Positions 11,074-50,898 of a stretch of 52,366 nt of DNA are shown here, in pieces. The DNA comes from Synechococcus sp. M44_DOE_062. GTDB taxonomy: Bacteria; Cyanobacteriota; Cyanobacteriia; Thermostichales; Thermostichaceae. Under the pieces are notes generated by a model that saw only the letters and a program-made list of their open reading frames with translations, did no database searches and was not told where the DNA came from. The stretch covers positions 1-52,366 of the forward strand of contig DVDX01000020.1 of NCBI GenBank assembly GCA_015295985.1, given 5' to 3'. The position numbers were made by a program, and so were the translations under genes. Numbering within the stretch: the stretch's first letter is position 1; each line of letters opens with the position of its first letter.

Positions 11074-12716
11074 GGCCGCCGCTGCACAAAAGCCGGCAAC
11101 TCAATCCGGCTGCGACCGCCTGTTTCCACTCCCGCCCGTGAAACAGCCGGAGCGGAGCGTTTGAGGAGCTTTTCTGCCCGTTCGCGCCAGCGGTGCGGAG
11201 CACTTTCTTCCTGCTCTTCCAGGGTGAGGGGCGGGATCCCTGTGGTGGGTGTTCTCCAGGTGGTGGGCTGGCTGGGGGGTGTCGCCGGGGAAGGAGCAGA
11301 CTCGTCAGCCGCTGCAGGAATCCGTTCCTGGTCGTGCCAGCGGTGCGGAGCACTAGCCGGATGCTTCGACCTGAGCTCGACAACCGCTGCTTGAGGGGAA
11401 GCCGAGGCTGACTGGCGCAGTGTGGCCAGTTGCTCTTCCAGCTCTTGATTGCGCTGCTGCAACAGGGCCACTTCCTTTTCTTGGGTTTGGGCGTAGGCGT
11501 GGGCTTGCACACACTCGGTTTTCAAAGCCATCACCTGCTGCTGCAACTTCTCGATCTGCTTTTGGCTGACCAGATGATGGGCCTCGGCCAGTTCTCGCCC
11601 CCGCCGGGCTTCTTCCAGGCTTTCTCGGGTGCTCTGCACCTGCTGCTGAACTTCCTGCCACTGGGCAAGGGTGGGACGCTGAGCCAACTCTTGGATAAGC
11701 TGATCCCGCTCAGCTCGCAAAGCACCAAGCTCGCGGGTCAAAGCCTGAACCTGCTCCTCTAGGGCCAAGATCTGCTGCGCCCGTGAGGACTCTGTTTCCC
11801 TAAGGTGGGCCACCTGGGCTGCTTCCGCTTCCAGCTTAGCGATCTGTTGGGCTTGCTCGGCCTGCTGCCGCTGACTCTGTTGCAGTTCTTCCAGCAAGGT
11901 GGCCCGTTCGGCCTTGGCAAAAGAGGCTTGTTGGCGCAGATGATCCAACTCCGCCTGCAAGCGTGCCCATTGCTCTGGGGTAGGACGCTCTTCCAGTTCG
12001 CGAATACGTTGCCGGGCGGTGTTCAGGTCAGCTTCCATGTGTGCCTTTTCGGTTTCCAGATGGGCCTGCAAACGCTGCCATTCGGCTTCCGCTTGGCGGT
12101 GGGCAGCCTCTAGCTCCGCCCGGAGGGTTTCCAGTTCTTGCGCAGAAGGTCGAGCAGCCAACTCTTGGATCTGCGCTTGCAATTGTGCTTTTTCTTCCTC
12201 TAGCTGCTGTACACGGAGCTGCAGTTGGGCTTGCAAAAGCTGTACCTGCGGCAGCTTGACGGCGTATTCTCCCAACTGGTTGGCCTGCTGTTTCAGTTCC
12301 AGGAGCTCCTGCTGCAGTTGGTAAAATCGGGCCGGATCGACGCGCCGCTGCAATTCCGCCTTGAGGGTTTCAATTTCTGTCTGGCTGGTTTGCAACTGCT
12401 GCTGCAGAATGTGGTAGTGCTCAAGCGTTGGACGGCGCTCCATTTCCCACAGGAGATTTTGCAGTTCTTCGATGTGCTGTTGCTGAAGCTGAAAAGCCTC
12501 TAGGGTAGGGCGCTGGGCTAGCTGCGCTTTCTCTTCTTGACAGGCTTGCAAAGCTTGATCCCGTTCTTGAATTTGGGCCTGCGCTTCCAGCAGTTGATGT
12601 TCCAAGCGGTGGATACACTCAATCTGCTGCAATGACAGCGCCTCCGATTCTGCCAGGGATCGCTCTAGGTTGCGCACACGCGCCCGCAAAGCTTTCAGCT
12701 CCTCTTCCCCTTCCAT
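11067..12716 (-). CDS. Long coiled-coil protein with repeated RPT breaks
   Basis: About 549 residues, very rich in Gln, Glu, Leu and Arg, with continuous heptad-like coiled coil from about residue 1 to 440 and no membrane segment. The coil is punctuated by a recurring short motif of the type RPTxExW: RPTLEAF, RPTLEHY, VDPARFY, RPSAQEL, RPTPEQW and RPTLAQW. The C-terminal 110 residues are low-complexity, Pro/Ser/Thr-rich and basic. They contain SAPHRW twice, each encoded by a copy of the dispersed mini-repeat. I chose the ATG at 12716 (MEGEEELKAL), which starts the coil; the frame runs upstream to 12785. Family not recognised. A scaffold or cytoskeletal role would only be inferred from the coiled coil. 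Confidence 0.7.
   Translation of the reverse strand: MEGEEELKALRARVRNLERSLAESEALSLQQIECIHRLEHQLLEAQAQIQERDQALQACQEEKAQLAQRPTLEAFQLQQQHIEELQNLLWEMERRPTLEHYHILQQQLQTSQTEIETLKAELQRRVDPARFYQLQQELLELKQQANQLGEYAVKLPQVQLLQAQLQLRVQQLEEEKAQLQAQIQELAARPSAQELETLRAELEAAHRQAEAEWQRLQAHLETEKAHMEADLNTARQRIRELEERPTPEQWARLQAELDHLRQQASFAKAERATLLEELQQSQRQQAEQAQQIAKLEAEAAQVAHLRETESSRAQQILALEEQVQALTRELGALRAERDQLIQELAQRPTLAQWQEVQQQVQSTRESLEEARRGRELAEAHHLVSQKQIEKLQQQVMALKTECVQAHAYAQTQEKEVALLQQRNQELEEQLATLRQSASASPQAAVVELRSKHPASAPHRWHDQERIPAAADESAPSPATPPSQPTTWRTPTTGIPPLTLEEQEESAPHRWRERAEKLLKRSAPAVSRAGVETGGRSRIELPAFVQRRPY
11179..11207 (+). repeat. Dispersed mini-hairpin repeat, canonical GTGC/GCAC type
   Basis: CGTTCGCG, spacer CCAGCG, hairpin GTGCGGAGCAC (4-bp stem, GGA loop), then TTTC. 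It lies inside the coiled-coil gene in antisense orientation and encodes the ESAPHRWRER part of its C-terminal tail. Confidence 0.7.
11329..11357 (+). repeat. Dispersed mini-hairpin repeat, GTGC/GCAC type, second copy in the same gene
   Basis: A degenerate 8-mer TGGTCGTG, spacer CCAGCG and an intact hairpin GTGCGGAGCAC at 11343-11353. It encodes a second SAPHRW in the coiled-coil protein tail, about 50 codons from the first. Confidence 0.6.
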
Positions 12717-15458: not shown

Positions 15459-16381
15459 ACGGGATCCCCTTGCAGCCGCTGCTGGATGCTCAACGCCAAT
15501 TTTTGCCCTAAGAACTCCGGCATGGTTGGAGTTGAGTCCGGCCCTAGCAAGTAAAAAATGAAGCGCGTCTGCTTGCGGCGGAGCATCAAATTGAGGTTAA
15601 CAACAGTCAAGTCCTCCTGCGCCAAGGCTGTCATCACCCGGTAGAACACGCCCGGCTGGTTGTCCACATCCACCAAAAGCGTGGGCAGGTGAAACACCGG
15701 GTCAAAATAAAAAGAAACCTGTGTGTCTTTCAGGCCAGCTTTGAGATCAAACTCCAGTGCTAAGGTTTCGTGAACGCGAAACACACTCGCCAGGCATTCG
15801 TGAATGGCCCGTTCTAGGCTGAGCTTGGTTTGGGAAGAAAGGCTGTGGCCATCGCGGGAGACGATGGTGCGGATAAACACCAGATGCGGCGAGTAGATCT
15901 GCCCATAGAGATGAATGCCATGCACCGAGAGATTAAAAGCGGTGAACACCCCAAACAGATCGCTGAGCAGAGAAGGTCGATTACGGTAGGCCAGACAAAC
16001 CACCGTCTTGCGACATTCGTCCTGCATCTGTACTACCGCCTTGCGGGTTTGGTAGAGGGCATAGGCCAAGCGCAGATTTTGGGCCTGCACCTCGCTGCTG
16101 ACAAACTGGCTGTAAAAGGGCGGAAAGCTCTGGTTAAAACGCCGCATCAGAGCAGATCGCGTCAGCGGGACGGAGTCCTTTCGCGTCAGCGGGACGGAGT
16201 CCTTTCGCGTCAGCGGGACGGGGTCCTTGCGGGTGCTGACTTTGATCGGCTGGGGATCGTCGTCATTGGTAGCCCTTTTCCGCGCTTCCCGATCCCCGGC
16301 AACCTCCAAAGGGGCCACCTTGGGCTGGGGAGTACCCTGCTGCGTTGATTGCTCAATGGACATCGACCTTGCCACCTGCAT
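15455..16381 (-). CDS. ACT-domain regulatory protein with an 8-residue tandem repeat
   Basis: About 308 residues. The C-terminal 210 residues hold two ACT-like regulatory domains. The first is [33 protein letters not shown] and the second [31 protein letters not shown], resembling the C-terminal ACT pair of GlnD-type uridylyltransferases. No nucleotidyltransferase or HD domain is present, so it is probably a ligand-sensing protein, possibly for amino acids (inference). The N-terminal about 100 residues are low complexity and contain an 8-residue unit of the form RKDSVPLT three times, encoded by three 24-bp tandem copies of the dispersed mini-repeat. I chose the ATG at 16381, preceded by GAGGGAG; the frame stays open to 16483 and another ATG lies at 16363. 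Confidence 0.7.
16157..16228 (+). repeat. 24-bp x3 in-frame tandem of the mini-hairpin repeat (GGAC/GTCC type)
   Basis: Three head-to-tail 24-bp units at 16157-16180, 16181-16204 and 16205-16228. Units 1 and 2 are identical and unit 3 has one A-to-G change. Each unit contains TCGCG, TCAGCG, then hairpin GGACGGAGTCC (GGACGGGGTCC in unit 3). They lie in the N-terminal coding part of the ACT-domain gene and give the repeated KDSVPLTR octapeptide. Confidence 0.9.
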
Positions 16382-38867: not shown

Positions 38868-41800
38868 CTAAACCTTGGTGGAAATGCCCAGCAATTGCAG
38901 GATCCCGCGCAGGGGGATCTCCACCCACTCGGGACGGTGGTTCAACTCGTAGCCCAGCTCGTAAATGGCTTTTTCCAGCAGATAGGCGTCCAACAACACC
39001 TCTATCTCTTGCAGGCTGCGGGGCAAAAAAGCTTTTCGCGTGGGCGAGGCAGAATCTTCCTGGGAAGCCGCCCGCAAGTATTCGGCCAAAAAGCCTGCAC
39101 AGACCCAGCGGTGCCAAAACTGAGCCCACCGCATCATGTCGGGGCAGTGGTCGGCGCAGACCAGGCCGCTCTCCAGTTGCTGGCGCAAAGCTGTGTGGAC
39201 GGCGTAGTGGAAGGAGCGCAGCATCCCCGCCACATCCCGTAAGGGGCAACGCTTAAGACGCCGTTCGCCCAAAGAGCGGGCCGGCTCCCCTTCAAAGTCG
39301 ATGATGACAAAGTCTTTGCCGGTAAACAGCACCTGGCCCAGGTGGTAATCCCCGTGGCAGCGGGTGCGCAGGGCGGTGATCTTCCGCTCCAGAATCAGGC
39401 GGAAGCGACTCATGATTTCCCCTTCTTGGTCGCGAACAGCCCGAGCCAAGTTGGCCTCTGCTTCCGGCAGCTTGGGGAGCTGCTTGTTCAGCAGCGGAAA
39501 CACCTGCCCCACCAAGTTGCGCATGGACTGGTAAACGGAGCGCTGGTAAAGGCTGGAGAAAGGCTCTGGGGCAAAGTCTTTGTTCTCGGTAAAGGACTCC
39601 GTCCCACTGCCGCGAACGGCAGCCAAGGCGATGTGCAGCTCAGCAGTGCGCTTGGCCAAGATTCGCACCGATTCCAGGTAGCTGCCAATGGTGGCATAGG
39701 CCAGCTCCGGCAAGGGCTGTTGGGAAAGCTCTAAGAAAGATCCCTGCGGAACGGGCACGGGATCCACCTCTTGATAGTGAACCAGCATCGCCTCAAAAAA
39801 TTGCCCCAGGCTGTCCAGCGTGTAGTGCCAGGCATCCCCCTCGTTGGGGATGTACTCCTGCAAAATGGCCAGGGTGATGGGCTGATCGGCAGGATCAAAC
39901 CCACGGGCCCCGCGACGACGGCGATACTCCAGGGATCCCAGCAGCCGCGGCACCCGCACTTGGGGATGGTGCTCCAGCAGGTAGCGGCCAATCTCCAGCT
40001 CGGGATTCACCCCTTCGGCCACCTTGCGGTAGACCTTGAGGATGTATTGGTTGCCGTAGACCACAGAGGTGTTGCTCTGCTCGGCCTTGAGGATACGGGG
40101 TTCCAGGCTGGGGTCATACTCAAAAGAGCCAAAGGTGGTGGCCCAAAGCTCCCCGGAGCTGTGGCGCAAGCGCCCCTGCTGGGCGATGATCTGCAAGGGT
40201 AGGGACAAAAAGGCTTTATCTGCCAAAGCGTCGAAAAGAACTCCCGGCGGATCCCCGGCCACTTGTACAGGGGCAATGACCGCTTGCGGCATCTCCCTGC
40301 GCAGGTGCAGAGCCATCTCCCGAGTGGCGTAGCCCACCGGAAGGGAGTAGACTTCCGCTTCCCCCTGAGTGAACTCAGTTTGCAGAAGAATGATCTGGCC
40401 CCGAAAGGGGGGATCCGCCTCCCGGTTGCAGGGAATGGCATCCAAGATCTGGGCCGACTGGATCTGGCGGGCTTTGGAGCCAAACCAGCGACAACGGTAG
40501 AGGTAGTCTCCCAAAAGCGCCTCCACCTGCTTTTGGCTTTCCCCTTGAAAGAGGCTTTCCCAATCGCCATTTGGGGGGATCAGGGTGGGCAAGCGATCCA
40601 GCTCTTCCGGCTTGCTGTAGCTGGAGTGAACCCGCTCCGTTTGCGGCTCCAGAGAAAACCAGTAGAAGGAATGGGGGCCTAGGGTCAAGAAATAGGGCAG
40701 TTGTCCGATGGCGGGAAACTCGGTGCGCCCAAAGATCTCCACCGGGACCAGCCCTTCCCACTCCGCCAAGTCCAGCTCCACGCATTGCACATAGCGGGAG
40801 AGGTTGGCCACCACCAAGATGCGCTCATCGCCAAAGGCCCGCATAAAGGCAAGCACCTTGCGATTTTCCGGGTGGAGCAGCTCGAAGGAGCCGCGGCCAA
40901 ACGCTTGGAATCGCTTGCGCACTGCGATGAGCCGCTTCATGGTCCACCACAGGGAATAGGGGTTGTTCCGCTGGGCTTCGACATTGACGGTTTCGTAGTG
41001 GTACTCAGCATCGATAACGATGGGCAGATAAAGCTTTTGCGGGTTGGCCCGGGAAAAGCCAGCGTTGCGGTCGGCGCTCCACTGCATAGGGGTGCGCACG
41101 CTGTTGCGATCCCCCAGGTAGATGTTGTCCCCCATGCCGATCTCGTCCCCGTAGTAAATAACCGGGGTGCCGGGCAGGGAAAACAGCAGGCTGTTCATCA
41201 GCTCGATGCGGCGGCGACTGTTGCCCAGCAGGGGGGCCAAGCGCCGGCGGATGCCCAGGTTCACCCGCGCATTGGGATCCTTGGCGTACACCTGGTACAT
41301 GTAGTCCCGCTCTTCGTCGGTGACCATCTCCAAGGTAAGCTCGTCGTGGTTGCGCAGGAAGATGGCCCACTGGCAGGTTTCAGGAATGGGCGGGGTTTGC
41401 TGCAGGATGTCGATGATGGGAAAGCGATCCTCCATCTGGATGGCCATGAACAGCCGCGGCATGAGGGGGAAGTGAAAGTCCATGTGGCATTCGTCCCCGT
41501 CGCCGAAATAGGCCACAGCATCTTCCGGCCATTGGTTCGCCTCGGCCAGCAACATGCGGTCGGGATAGTTGCGGTCGATGTGTCTGCGTAGGGCTTTGAG
41601 GAAGGCATGGGTTTCCGGTAGGTTCTCGCAGTTGGTGCCTTCCCGCTCGTAGAGATAGGGCACGGCATCCAGCCGCAGGCCATCCACCCCCATGCTCAGC
41701 CAGAAGTCCACCACCTCAAAGATGGCTTTCTGCACGGCGGGGTTGTCGTAGTTGAGATCCGGCTGGTGGGAGTAGAAGCGATGCCAATAGTAGGCTTTGG

Positions 41801-46780: not shown

Positions 46781-47704
46781 TCAGTTGTTGTAGATTTTGC
46801 CCAAGGCAGCCGGCGGGCGAGTTTGGCGGGTGCGGCTCAGCACTCCCGATAGAACCCCCATTGTTAACACGAAGGGCAACGCCTGGATCAACACGGGCGG
46901 CATCACATCTCCCCCCTGCAGTTGGATGGCCAGGGCGTCGGTGGCCCCAAACAACAGCGTCGCGCCCAGGATCCCAAAGGGATGCCACTTGCCGAAGATC
47001 ATCGCTGCCAAGGCGATAAAGCCCTTTCCTGCTGACATGTTGCGGACAAACTGGTTCAAAAAGCCGATGGAAAGATAGGCCCCCGCCAGACCCCCCAACA
47101 GGCCGGAGAGCAGCACCGCCGTGTAGCGCATACCCAGGACATCCACCCCCATGGTGGCAGCAGCCTGAGGATGCTCTCCCACCGCTCGCAGCCGCAAGCC
47201 CCAGGGCGTTTTGAACAGCAACCACCAGGAGATCGGCACCAATAGAAAGGCCAGATACACCAAGGGGCTAAACCCATGCCACAGCGGCAGCCGATTGACA
47301 ATTTCCTGAGAGTTGGTGGTGTTGCCGTAGAAGGATTGCAGCACCAGCGAAGGCACGCTCATGGCCAACAGGTTGATGGCGGTGCCGCTGACAATTTGAT
47401 CGGCTCTGTAGCGGATGCACATCAGCGCATGCACAAAGGCAATGGCCACCCCCCCCAAGGCACCGGCCAACAGACCCACCCAAGGGATCCAACCCACCTG
47501 AGCTGCCGGGGTCTGGGCCAGAAGGGAAGCTTCCAGGCGTTGGGTGGTTACTGCCGCCGCCAGAGCCCCGAATAAGATGATCCCTTCCAGGGCAATATTG
47601 ACCACGCCGCTGCGTTCGGAGTACATGCCCCCCAAGGCCGTGAGCAACAGAGGGGTGGTGGAGCGCAGGGTAGCCGGGATCAAAGCCCAAAACAGAGTTG
47701 CCAT
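46781..47704 (-). CDS. ABC transporter permease, nucleoside/sugar type (NupQ/BmpC-like)
   Basis: 307 residues, about eight to nine membrane helices. The BPD_transp_2 family signature at the start, TALGGMYSERSGVVNIALEGIILFGAL, and the coupling-helix region RNMSAGKGFIALAAMIFGKWHPFGILG are typical of the nucleoside (NupQ/BmpC/YufQ) branch. Cyanobacterial homologues transport nucleosides or related compounds with a BMP-type binding protein and one ATPase, neither of which is here. The ATG at 47704 lies directly at the end of a dispersed mini-repeat (47702-47730) whose CGGAG could act as the ribosome site. It follows the partner permease by 46 bp. Confidence 0.9.
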   Translation of the reverse strand: MATLFWALIPATLRSTTPLLLTALGGMYSERSGVVNIALEGIILFGALAAAVTTQRLEASLLAQTPAAQVGWIPWVGLLAGALGGVAIAFVHALMCIRYRADQIVSGTAINLLAMSVPSLVLQSFYGNTTNSQEIVNRLPLWHGFSPLVYLAFLLVPISWWLLFKTPWGLRLRAVGEHPQAAATMGVDVLGMRYTAVLLSGLLGGLAGAYLSIGFLNQFVRNMSAGKGFIALAAMIFGKWHPFGILGATLLFGATDALAIQLQGGDVMPPVLIQALPFVLTMGVLSGVLSRTRQTRPPAALGKIYNN

Positions 47705-47730
47705 AGTGCTCCGTAGCGCCAGCGCAAACG
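47702..47730 (-). repeat. Mini-hairpin repeat overlapping the start codon of permease 2
   Basis: On the minus strand CGTTTGCG, spacer CTGGCG, 11-mer CTACGGAGCAC, then TATG, whose ATG is the start codon of the permease gene. The register is identical to the canonical copies. The stem is imperfect. Confidence 0.6.
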
Positions 47731-47750
47731 AGCTCTTCGCTCAGGGGTAC

Positions 47751-49601
47751 TCAAGTTGAGCCTTCATCGCAGTCCATTTCCACCTGGGCTGCCTGCAGGG
47801 GATCCGTGAAATAGCCCGGCAACAGGCCGCCTGCTGCGATGAACAAGACAATCAAAGCTTGTAGGGCGGTCACCAATTCTCGGCTGATCCCCAATTCCAG
47901 ATTGAGCCGCAGCCCCCCCGTCAAGAGTACCCCAAACAGCAGCGCTGTGAGGACGATGCCCAGAGGGGAGTTTTGCCCCATCAGGGCCACCGCAATGCCA
48001 TCAAAACCAACTTGGGCAGGCAAGGATTGCTTGAGGCGGTATTCCTCGAGGCCGGCCCCCAAAACATAGTGGGTTGCGGCCAGCCCCGCCAAGGCGCCGG
48101 AGATGGCCATGGCCCAGATTTGCTTTTGGCCCAAGTTCACCCCGGCATATTCTGCCGCTCTGGGAGAAAAGCCCATGGCCCGCAGCTCATAGCCCTCCAA
48201 GGTTCCCCACAGATAGACATTCACCACCGCCACCGCCAGCAGTGCAATCAAAAAGGCCCCATTCAAGCGGATGGCGGCCAACCCTGTGGGCACCTCCACC
48301 GGCCAACCGGGCAAGATACCCCCCAGCAGATATCCCCCCAACCCTGCCGCCAGGGATCCGATACATCGTCTTTGCAGGGGCCAGCCTCTGCAGAACAGGT
48401 AGAACCCCACCCCGGCCAACAGGGCCAAGGGCCAAGCCCAAGACAGCGTTCCGGGGCCGGATCCCTGTAGCCCCAGCAACTCCAGCAGCGAGGGAAGCCG
48501 CGATTCGGGGCGAATTTCGTAGCTACGGGCTTCTGGGCCGGGGGCCTTGAAGGGCAAGGTAACCGGGTAGCCGAAAAAACGGTACTGGTTGGCCGAAATG
48601 AAGAACAAAAAGATTGAGGCGGCAATGTAGTTCATCATGATCGTGTTGATGACCTCGTGGGTGCCGAAGCGGGCCTTGAGCCAACCAGGGATCCCACCCC
48701 AGAGGGCCCCACCGGCAGCCGCTGCCAAAATCGAAAGGGGCAAAGTCAGCCAACCTGGCCCCGGCAGGTATACCCCCACCAGCATGGTGGCAATGGCTCC
48801 CATCGTCAGTTGTCCCGGCGCGCCGATGTTGAACAAACCCGCGTGAAAGCCAAAGGCCACCGCCAACCCCGTAAAAATCAGAGGAGTGGCCAGCAGCAAA
48901 CTCTGGAACAACCCAGGCAGATGGGTGATGGGGCTAAACAGCACCTGAAAGGTGTAGGTGATCAAGTCCAGTTTGGTGCTTAGCTTTACAAAAAAGGGCG
49001 AATCGGGCGAGGAGCCCAGGCCAGGCCGCAGCAACCCCACCACCACCGCCCCCGCTGCCACCGCCGCCCCCAGGGCACTCAGGGGTACGATGATCTGCCT
49101 CCGCCGCACCAAAAAGGCTTTTCCCCCCGGCAACTGCAGCCGCCCCAGCAGCAACAGCAGCAGGGCATAGGCAAAGCTGGCATAGCTGGCCAAAGAAGGG
49201 CTGAACCGCCGCAACGGCAACCGAGTTGGCGGGATCCCTTCCGCCAGGGCCGCCCCATTCACCACCCCCACTGCCCCATAAAACCAGAGCAAGCCCAGCC
49301 CAAACAGAACTAGACCGCCCACCCCCAAGCTGTACAGCCAGCGGGCGCGCACTTGCCGCTCTTTGATCCCCAGGGCCAGACACGACAACAGCGCCAACAG
49401 CACCCAGGCCCAGCTCAACCTTGGGATCCAACCCACCGCCAAAGTATCCGGGATCCCCAACTGCTGCGGGTCGATGAGGCCAAAAGTTCCTGCCAGCACC
49501 CCTGCGCCACCGAACTCCCGCCTCAGCACCCACCAGGGGCAGAGCAAAAACAGCAAAACGGCGCTCAGATTGGTCAGCAACAGCAGCATGGTGCTACGCA
49601 C
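47751..49601 (-). CDS. ABC transporter permease, nucleoside/sugar type (NupP/BmpB-like) with N-terminal membrane extension
   Basis: About 616 residues, much larger than usual (about 350). The C-terminal about 400 residues hold the BPD_transp_2 permease: LIFTGLAVAFGFHAGLFNIGAPGQLTMGA, INTIMMNYIAASIFLFF, RAAEYAGVNLGQKQIWAMAISGALAGLAA and GFDGIAVALMGQNSPLGIVL. The N-terminal about 190 residues are an extra block with about four hydrophobic helices. The start is GTG 49601 or ATG 49589; a mini-repeat (49587-49615) ends on the latter, as in the partner gene, so I favour 49589 as equally likely. It is followed by its partner permease on the same strand. Confidence 0.88.
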   Translation of the reverse strand: MRSTMLLLLTNLSAVLLFLLCPWWVLRREFGGAGVLAGTFGLIDPQQLGIPDTLAVGWIPRLSWAWVLLALLSCLALGIKERQVRARWLYSLGVGGLVLFGLGLLWFYGAVGVVNGAALAEGIPPTRLPLRRFSPSLASYASFAYALLLLLLGRLQLPGGKAFLVRRRQIIVPLSALGAAVAAGAVVVGLLRPGLGSSPDSPFFVKLSTKLDLITYTFQVLFSPITHLPGLFQSLLLATPLIFTGLAVAFGFHAGLFNIGAPGQLTMGAIATMLVGVYLPGPGWLTLPLSILAAAAGGALWGGIPGWLKARFGTHEVINTIMMNYIAASIFLFFISANQYRFFGYPVTLPFKAPGPEARSYEIRPESRLPSLLELLGLQGSGPGTLSWAWPLALLAGVGFYLFCRGWPLQRRCIGSLAAGLGGYLLGGILPGWPVEVPTGLAAIRLNGAFLIALLAVAVVNVYLWGTLEGYELRAMGFSPRAAEYAGVNLGQKQIWAMAISGALAGLAATHYVLGAGLEEYRLKQSLPAQVGFDGIAVALMGQNSPLGIVLTALLFGVLLTGGLRLNLELGISRELVTALQALIVLFIAAGGLLPGYFTDPLQAAQVEMDCDEGST

Positions 49602-49615
49602 CGCTAATGCGATGG
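49587..49615 (-). repeat. Mini-hairpin repeat overlapping the start codon of permease 1
   Basis: On the minus strand CCATCGCA, spacer TTAGCG, hairpin GTGCGTAGCAC (perfect GTGC/GCAC stem, GTA loop), then CATG, whose ATG (49589) is a likely start codon. The register matches the copy at the partner permease. Confidence 0.6.
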
Positions 49616-49701: not shown

Positions 49702-50898
49702 TCACGGGAAAGTGCTCCGCACCGCCGTCGCGAACGAGGCCAGTTGGATCCGTTCTGGCCTCAAGTCTCGAATCAAAGTGGTGCGTAGAGGTGCTGGGGT
49801 CAGGGATTCGGCGTAGGCAGAGTTGAGATAAGTCGAATACTTGGAAAACCCGCCGGAGTCGAATCCCGCCGCCAGGTAGGTTTTGAAAAAAGCAGTGGCC
49901 AAGCCCTTGAGCAAGGGGCGAGCTGACTGGGGATCTGGCCCGATCAACTCCTGCGGCACCGGGAAGGCCCCCTGGCCACCCCCACCCAGGAAGGTGAAAT
50001 GGGTGGATCCCTCCACTATCGCCAAATAACGCTGCTGGGATCCCGGCCAGGTAAAGGGTTCAATCTGCTCTGCTAGGGCGGGGGTAAAGTAATCCTCGCT
50101 GCCCGACATTATCATCACCGGGATCCCCACTTGGCCTAGCCCTTCTGGGCCAAACACCGTGCTGGTGAGGGGGTTGAGGGCAAACACCGCCTGAATGCGC
50201 GCATCTGCCAACTGCCCCGCCTGCGCGGCCAGGTTGGAAGCCTGGAACACCTCTATCGCCCGACATTGCAACAACAGAGAAACATTCAGGATCAGCTCCA
50301 AGGAATGGGATGTCTGGCAGTTCTCTTGCAAGCGGGCTGGATTGAGCGCAGCCCCTGCTGCCGCCAACACCGTGTATCCCCCCAAAGACTGGCCGAGCAG
50401 TCCTGCCGACTTTACATCCAGCCTGCCCCAGCGGCTGGGATCTTGCTGTGCCCTGAGTTCCAGCTCGTCCAACAGCAGAGAAATATCCTGGGGCCGCGCC
50501 ACCCACTCATAGGGCCTTGGCAAAGAGCCAAACCCTGACAAAAAGCTGCGCACCCGCTCCACATCGGTGCCCGGATGCTCCAACACCGCCACCGCAAACC
50601 CCCAAGAAGCCAAATAGTGGGCCAAATAGGCAAAGGTATTGCGGTCAGAGGCAATGCCGTGGGAGATTACCACCAAGGGGATACGCCCCTTCCCCTCCGG
50701 CGGATAGACTTCCACCGACACAGGCGTATCGCGCCAAGGGTTGACCAACTGGAAGCGCTCCACCTGCCACTCCAACTCACCCGGCTGCTCGGGGCTAAGG
50801 TGAGGTTGAGCTGAGTCTTGGGCTGCCATGCTGAGAGAAGCGCTGGAAGATGCCCACTCAGCTTTCCGCCCGGCCTCTTCTCGCAGCCTTGCGATCAA
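49702..50898 (-). CDS. Alpha/beta hydrolase, separated from its DUF1400 N-terminal part
   Basis: 398 residues. An alpha/beta hydrolase core has IPLVVISHGIASDRNTFAYLAHYLASWGFAVAVLEHPGTD, the nucleophile elbow GLLGQSLGGYTVL (G-x-S-x-G with Ser), GIPVMIMSGSEDYFTP and VEGSTHFTF, with the catalytic His. In most cyanobacteria this domain is fused behind DUF1400 in one exported protein of about 550 residues. Here it lies in a different frame, overlapping the DUF1400 ORF by 41 bp, with a non-ATG (TTG) start at 50898. The last residues (ASFATAVRSTFP and the stop) derive from a mini-repeat at 49708-49736. Confidence 0.75.
   Translation of the reverse strand: MIARLREEAGRKAEWASSSASLSMAAQDSAQPHLSPEQPGELEWQVERFQLVNPWRDTPVSVEVYPPEGKGRIPLVVISHGIASDRNTFAYLAHYLASWGFAVAVLEHPGTDVERVRSFLSGFGSLPRPYEWVARPQDISLLLDELELRAQQDPSRWGRLDVKSAGLLGQSLGGYTVLAAAGAALNPARLQENCQTSHSLELILNVSLLLQCRAIEVFQASNLAAQAGQLADARIQAVFALNPLTSTVFGPEGLGQVGIPVMIMSGSEDYFTPALAEQIEPFTWPGSQQRYLAIVEGSTHFTFLGGGGQGAFPVPQELIGPDPQSARPLLKGLATAFFKTYLAAGFDSGGFSKYSTYLNSAYAESLTPAPLRTTLIRDLRPERIQLASFATAVRSTFP
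49708..49736 (-). repeat. Dispersed mini-hairpin repeat, canonical GTGC/GCAC type, at a gene 3' end
   Basis: On the minus strand CGTTCGCG, spacer ACGGCG, hairpin GTGCGGAGCAC, then TTTC. It encodes the last residues of the hydrolase, up to the stop codon. Confidence 0.7.

Follow-up and report, generated by a model that had tools for sequence, protein, structure and literature searches.

The short repeat that stands against the start codons of two neighbouring permease genes in Synechococcus sp. M44_DOE_062, a cyanobacterium of hot-spring type, is probably a mobile element of very small size, namely a 24-nt block that is inserted without target duplication at C-Y-G↓A-like sites (the arrow marks the point of insertion) and lands against ATG, the copies at the permeases being specific to the lineage. 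The observations behind this reading are a repeat family, covariation in its stem, presence or absence of an exact 24-nt block, a preferred insertion site, and the use of the same ATGs by orthologues that carry no repeat. The permease repeats would, on the same probable reading taken as a whole, be tiny jumping DNA of a known kind and not a switch common to both genes. The window is the whole stretch of DNA that was analysed (52,366 nt); its genome is referred to as G000 and the five other genomes of the genus as G001 to G005.

Table. Positions of the permease region and of repeat units in the window
Feature	Position	Strand	Details
Permease 2 (perm2), ABC transporter	46781..47704	-	307 aa, PF02653; caller start 47704
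Permease 1 (perm1), ABC transporter	47751..49589	-	612 aa, PF02653; caller start 49589
Alpha/beta hydrolase-like gene with third repeat copy	49702..50829	-	
Unit TTTGCGCTGGCGCTACGGAGCACT adjoining perm2 ATG	47705..47728	-	24 nt; profile score 23.7; second stem 2/4 pairs
Unit ATCGCATTAGCGGTGCGTAGCACC adjoining perm1 ATG	49590..49613	-	24 nt; score 27.4; second stem 4/4 pairs; loop GTA
Unit TTCGCGACGGCGGTGCGGAGCACT in last codons of alpha/beta hydrolase ORF, read in frame	49711..49734	-	24 nt; score 33.1
Unit with precise 24-nt empty site in G004	11331..11354	+	
Unit with precise 24-nt empty site in G004	39593..39616	-	empty allele CCG↓A
Tandem array of three units (period 24 nt; stem GGAC/GTCC)	16156..16227	+	profile matches 16153, 16177, 16201; G004 holds one unit (48-nt indel)

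It had been noted in the first-pass annotation that each permease gene has a repeat ending on its start codon, in identical register, and both the coordinates and the register were borne out. On the minus strand, the perm2 leader reads ...GGAGCAC-T-ATG (that is, ...CTACGGAGCAC-T-ATG), with the ATG at 47704-47702, and the perm1 leader reads ...GTAGCAC-C-ATG (...GTGCGTAGCAC-C-ATG), with the ATG at 49589-49587. The last base of the 24-nt unit, T or C, respectively, is thus the base just before the ATG. A home-made hexamer gene caller, blind to the repeat, picked exactly the same ATGs, and the orthologue pairs of G003 and G005, in which the repeat is absent, keep them as well. A third copy, absent from that annotation, was found at the C-terminal end of the hydrolase gene upstream of perm1. 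Two other statements about the starts held for one gene each. The CGGAG described as lying at ribosome-site distance is so placed at perm2 (GGAG-CACT-ATG, 4 nt) but is replaced by GTAG at perm1, and the mini-hairpin described at both starts has an intact stem at perm1 but a broken one at perm2. When the two leaders were folded, neither perm1 nor perm2 did better than shuffled sequences (z -0.03 and 0.53). As the perm2 stem is broken and neither leader folds better than its shuffles, a translation-control hairpin shared by the two genes is unsupported.

Close orthologues of both permeases (at least 87% amino-acid identity) were found in G003 and G005 only, among 20 genomes searched. A conserved hairpin was looked for in these homologous pairs and was absent from all the four perm1 and perm2 leaders, where the best profile score within 200 nt was below 0. 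For perm1, the G005 leader has CATCTCCGCCT directly before the ATG (...CCGCCT-ATG) at the place where G000 carries the unit, and the net gain in G000 is a clean 24 bp. When perm1 DNA of G003 was aligned with that of G000, the alignment reached the ATG and stopped exactly there; the G003 leader (TGT-ATG) is outside the preferred insertion site. The perm2 orthologue leaders (CCC-ATG) are compatible with that site, and the insertion boundary is unreadable there because the perm2 leader has changed more widely than by the unit alone. Compared with G003, the hydrolase copy is a net gain of 24 nt in frame (alignment, counted by hand). Within the same overall reading, both permease copies are probably insertions, specific to the lineage, into leaders that already existed; no regulatory role came to light for them, and they may be near-neutral.

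The repeat is a genus-wide family and not a product of chance. Its exact core, GGTGCGGAGCAC, was counted 62 times in the 2.93-Mb G000 genome, against 0 for the reversed pattern. With forward and reverse matches added up, the other five genus members hold 10, 2, 10, 65, and 86 copies of the core, and none of fourteen genomes from outside the genus has more than 4. With a 28-column profile grown from 33 seeds, 330 copies were found in 851,470 bp of G000 and 4 on the reversed sequence; by extrapolation, a genome would hold about 1,100 copies. A covariance model gave at least 86-158 matches in each of the six genus members, counts that are a floor since at most about 150 candidates were scored per genome, along with 5 and 13 matches in two sister genera and 0-4 in twelve more distant genomes. 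An exact 22-nt core, when run against viral_contigs in the search for a viral carrier, had 0 matches. A description of the 24-nt repeat in these strains was not found in the portions of the literature covered by our search.

The unit is 24 nt long, has the pattern K-T-CGC-GNNA-GCG-N4-GGA-N4'-T and comprises two adjacent mini-hairpins. In the second, the loop is GGA or GTA, and the 4-bp stem is variable yet self-complementary. The core noted earlier is one subtype among several stem sequences, which include GGAC/GTCC (59), GTGC/GCAC (34), TTGC/GCAA (18), and also GGCC/GGCC, GCGC/GCGC, TGCC/GGCA, TCGC/GCGA, and others. In 348 isolated copies from two genomes, the stem pairs 15-25, 16-24, and 17-23 were formed in 332, 320, and 327 copies, compared with 258, 163, and 224 expected from base composition. 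When column pairs are ranked by information, these three are in the top five, and the remaining two of the five link the same neighbouring stem columns. In four contigs of G000 (C26, C33, C74, and C81), units lie at the contig ends, mostly in tandem with a 24-nt period; tandem arrays, therefore, probably break the assembly. The sequence GGGATCCC is frequent by eye throughout the window, and some units are fused to it or inserted beside it. PMC4390886 reports the same abundance in Synechococcus OS types A and B.

The repeat is mobile. G004 is about 90-95% identical to G000 and collinear with it across much of the window. In a 332-kb alignment of the two genomes, with counts restricted to events with good flanks, the indel spectrum peaked at exactly 24 nt (16 extra blocks in G000 and 8 in G004), while any other length between 20 and 29 nt was represented by 0-2 indels per genome; among larger indels, there was one of 48 nt and one of 72 nt. 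Twenty-two of the 24 indels of this length were the repeat unit. No target duplication was found in these 22 insertion sites, and the net gain was exactly 24 nt, that is, the length of the unit. In one case (L088 4979), a unit was nested inside the GGA loop of another copy.

The empty alleles were used to read the insertion site. Three of the 22 sites are poorly anchored (L091 14314, L097 11852, and L104 9476), and the site matrix was built from 21 of them, only L104 9476 being left out. In these 21 sites, position -3 was C in 17, position -2 a pyrimidine in 21, and position -1 G in 13; the base 3' of the site (+1) was A in 18 of 22. The 5' flanks of 410 isolated copies (chosen by unit score) were 63% C, 95% Y, and 67% G at the same positions. 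It is clear that the preferred site is C-Y-G↓A. Hence, the last base of the unit comes to stand directly before an A, and the register at the permease ATGs follows from the site. The two permease placements, which had been described as independent and at the same offset, are indeed so, and their register is a genus-wide property of the repeat. After insertion, the A at the 3' junction was found as T in 9 of 18 filled alleles, A in 7, and G in 2. The T in half of these is not accounted for by a plain insertion model and counts against the mobile-element explanation. An origin of the variable stem in target duplication was also considered, but base matches at a distance of 24 were weak and confined to columns -1 and 0 (z 3.1 and 4.8), decayed tandem neighbours may be their source, and the idea plays no part in the explanation given here.

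According to the mechanism that we propose, the unit would fold into its two adjacent mini-hairpins, and an exact 24-nt block would be inserted without target duplication at C-Y-G↓A-like sites, its 3' end being followed at once by an A. A start codon with C-Y-N in front of it would be a natural target, and copies would come to rest exactly against the ATG. The stems vary freely but keep their pairing, so it is probably the folded strand (ssDNA or RNA) and not the sequence that the machinery recognizes. Mobilization would be supplied in trans by an enzyme. No mobilizing enzyme was found in G000, where all the Y1 transposase matches look broken: four PF01797 (Y1) matches lie at three places, with frames broken as assembled. 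The Y1 transposase was considered as the mobilizer and set aside, the matches being broken genes, two of which have a unit near their end. These two are L201 and L202, with a unit roughly at the 3' end; L203 has none there.

About half of the copies are within genes, where a gain in frame amounts to 8 codons; the reading frame is kept because the unit is 24 nt long. The unit insertions lay inside called coding sequence in 12 of 14 cases for G000 and, among 24-nt insertions, in 6 of 8 for G004. Among copies with a profile score of at least 16, G000 has 89 in genes on the same strand, 42 in genes on the opposite strand, and 160 elsewhere (131/291 in called CDS); the respective numbers for G004 are 112, 59, and 164 (171/335). 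In the samples from the two genomes, in-gene copies occupy the sense strand at about 2:1 (201 versus 101), and 135 of the 201 sense copies share one reading phase. The CYG↓A site may be the cause of this bias of strand and phase, or the bias may hint at an RNA step.

Copies were also found against the starts of other genes. For rplR (ribosomal protein L18, PF00861; L238 versus L106), G004 has a unit between ...tagccc and ATG, and G000 is empty (...tagcct-ATG). A 449-aa gene carries a unit before its start in G000, and the allele in G004 is empty (GGATCCC-ATGG). A gene that we take to be antiporter-like has a unit at its start in G003 and none in G004; G004 keeps an AGGAGG near the ATG, and the insertion in G003 displaced this native AGGAGG from the start. 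An HNH gene has a start-abutting unit in all six genus genomes (scores 18.2-26.7; loci L328-L333, 60 nt upstream), and none of 14 genomes outside the genus has it (best score 9.3). In its leader, 17 of 19 unit columns are invariant, compared with 7 of 41 upstream columns (ungapped), and the stem is kept even where the loop has changed in G004.

Exact abutment on called starts was seen for 3 copies in the G000 sample and 3 in the G004 sample (one of the latter being a doubtful TTG within a longer frame), and distances 1-5 were empty. Under uniform placement, 0.29 and 0.34 abutments, respectively, would be expected (P 0.003 and 0.005). Weighting noncoding space by the site motif raised the expected numbers to 1.17 for G000 (P 0.11) and 1.56 for G004 (P 0.21), and hence a good part of the start excess is site preference. 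With the two genomes pooled, the 6 abutments compare with 0.6 expected under uniform placement and 2.7 under site weighting.

A genus search for AGCGNNNCGKAGNNNYATG gave 43 places, and its reversed control gave 1. The places comprise 42 distinct contexts; called starts make up 14 of them, including 5 that belong to the one HNH gene. After the HNH contexts were collapsed, 10 genes among 38 places remained, and 9 of the 23 places outside called CDS are called starts. The background, 9.5-10.6% of noncoding ATGs, was measured in G000 and G004 alone; the places were drawn from six genomes. With site weighting, P for the share of called starts lay between 6e-5 and 1.2e-3; when the gene in the window was left out, it lay between 2.9e-4 and 3.8e-3. 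The gene calls are home-made (hexamer score), and several start calls rest on the caller alone; L212 and L217 went uncounted because the caller puts both starts 27 nt further upstream, ahead of the unit. The two tests are of unequal strength: the abutment count gives 6 versus 2.7, and the test conditional on ATG leaves a residue. There may thus be a real excess at true starts beyond site preference, which either tolerance or co-option could supply. It may be noted that 11 of 330 copies have an ATG at offset 1. Explaining this excess as mere flank composition (8 among 203 isolated copies, against about 7.8 from the marginals, by hand) was too quick, as the share of true starts is still raised. 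A second proposal, that start codons are special targets, was also given up in its simple form, as site weighting lifts the expected numbers to the values given above; the residue conditional on ATG remains.

A more far-reaching version, which we offer tentatively and consider rather doubtful, is that a mobile 24-nt unit recognized by its fold rather than its sequence targets CYG↓A, settles at true starts beyond what site preference gives, and seeds new leaders with its own GGAG at a fixed spacing, even on a gene as basic as rplR, with at least one of them (HNH) fixed genus-wide. The unit would then be a moving 5'-leader module and a donor of in-frame octapeptides.

The first-pass annotation had suggested that the element was co-opted as a translation-control hairpin, the unit being kept at starts because its GGAG loop and hairpin would serve as a ribosome site, or a switch, that can be carried from place to place. 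This is unsupported for the two permeases: there is no conservation, the stem of perm2 is broken, perm1 has lost the GGAG, and the leaders fold no better than shuffles. As a general explanation we consider it unlikely. The exact abutment in two genomes, with distances 1-5 empty, could be read in its favour; however, those empty distances also mean that wider spacings are not used, and the spacing from GGAG to ATG is just 4 nt. The 9 of 23 noncoding places, against about 10% of noncoding ATGs, and the one insertion in G003 that pushed away a native AGGAGG also fit co-option, but most of the testable start-abutting copies are strain-specific. The HNH leader, kept in 6/6 genomes with its invariant unit columns, is the best candidate for real co-option, and a weaker form of the idea would survive there.

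Plain coincidence, in which a dense repeat meets two starts and site preference is not involved, is very unlikely: some of the roughly 1,100 copies extrapolated per genome should abut starts, and the two cases lie in one window and were picked after the fact, but the counts of 3 and 3 exceed the uniform expectation (one G004 case being doubtful), and the insertion-site motif is clear. The proposal of a repeat carried along with the start regions, or brought in with the transporter genes, is hardly tenable, since the same ATGs are used by orthologues in which the repeat is absent from 4/4 leaders, perm1 differs from G005 by a clean 24 bp, its DNA in G003 aligns up to the ATG and breaks there, and the unit is in 0 of 36 Thermaceae-side leaders (19 perm1 and 17 perm2 that could be placed; 20 loci examined), even though the transporter looks horizontally acquired. 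As for the permease pair itself (46781-49589), its closest perm1 relatives outside the genus are in Thermaceae (Meiothermus; 56-59% identity), and G001, G002, and G004 have no close orthologues of it; judged from these comparisons, the pair looks horizontally acquired.

If the repeat is a mobile element of the kind described, one of the smallest mobile DNA units gains a measurable insertion rule, namely exact length, site, and orientation. With such a rule, in a cyanobacterial genus that has close sister genomes, the old question of how elements too small to encode anything move would become directly testable. The element would also provide a route along which essential genes have their leaders, and proteins their sequences, rewritten in steps of 24 nt.

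Several known systems invite comparison. REP/REPIN elements (PMC3733652 and PMC3116915) carry GTAG or CGTC tags. The likeness lies in short palindromic repeats in many copies and in the GGAG/GTAG tetranucleotide present here; in the present family, however, the tetranucleotide is in the loop, and an intact Y1/RAYT gene was not found in G000. The location is not extragenic either, with 131/291 (G000) and 171/335 (G004) copies in called CDS. Rickettsia palindromic elements, which are much longer, are inserted in frame in protein-coding genes; in-frame insertion is shared with the present unit, but here it adds 8 codons. MITEs derived from ISSoc2 were reportedly described in these Synechococcus strains by Nelson et al. 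in 2012. They are likewise non-autonomous mobile DNA of the same organisms, but the terminal inverted repeats and target-site duplication of MITEs were not seen here, and the unit is 24 nt only. The closest description is that of the small dispersed repeats (SDR) of Nostoc punctiforme, said by Elhai et al. (2008) to be 21-27 nt long, dispersed in high copy, and recently mobile, and reportedly also structured, with compensatory changes and nested insertions. They are not known to have a mobilizing enzyme. The present family differs in belonging to another lineage, in its fixed 24-nt unit with one hypervariable self-complementary stem and a CYG↓A site, and in having copies that reside in frame within genes or abut start codons. 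Set beside the SDR features, it has the size and dispersal (a 24-nt unit, 330 copies in 851 kb), the structure with compensatory changes (348 isolated copies), and the recent mobility with nested insertion (L088 4979, in the GGA loop). Judged by these described features, the unit appears to work like the Nostoc SDR and to fit them.
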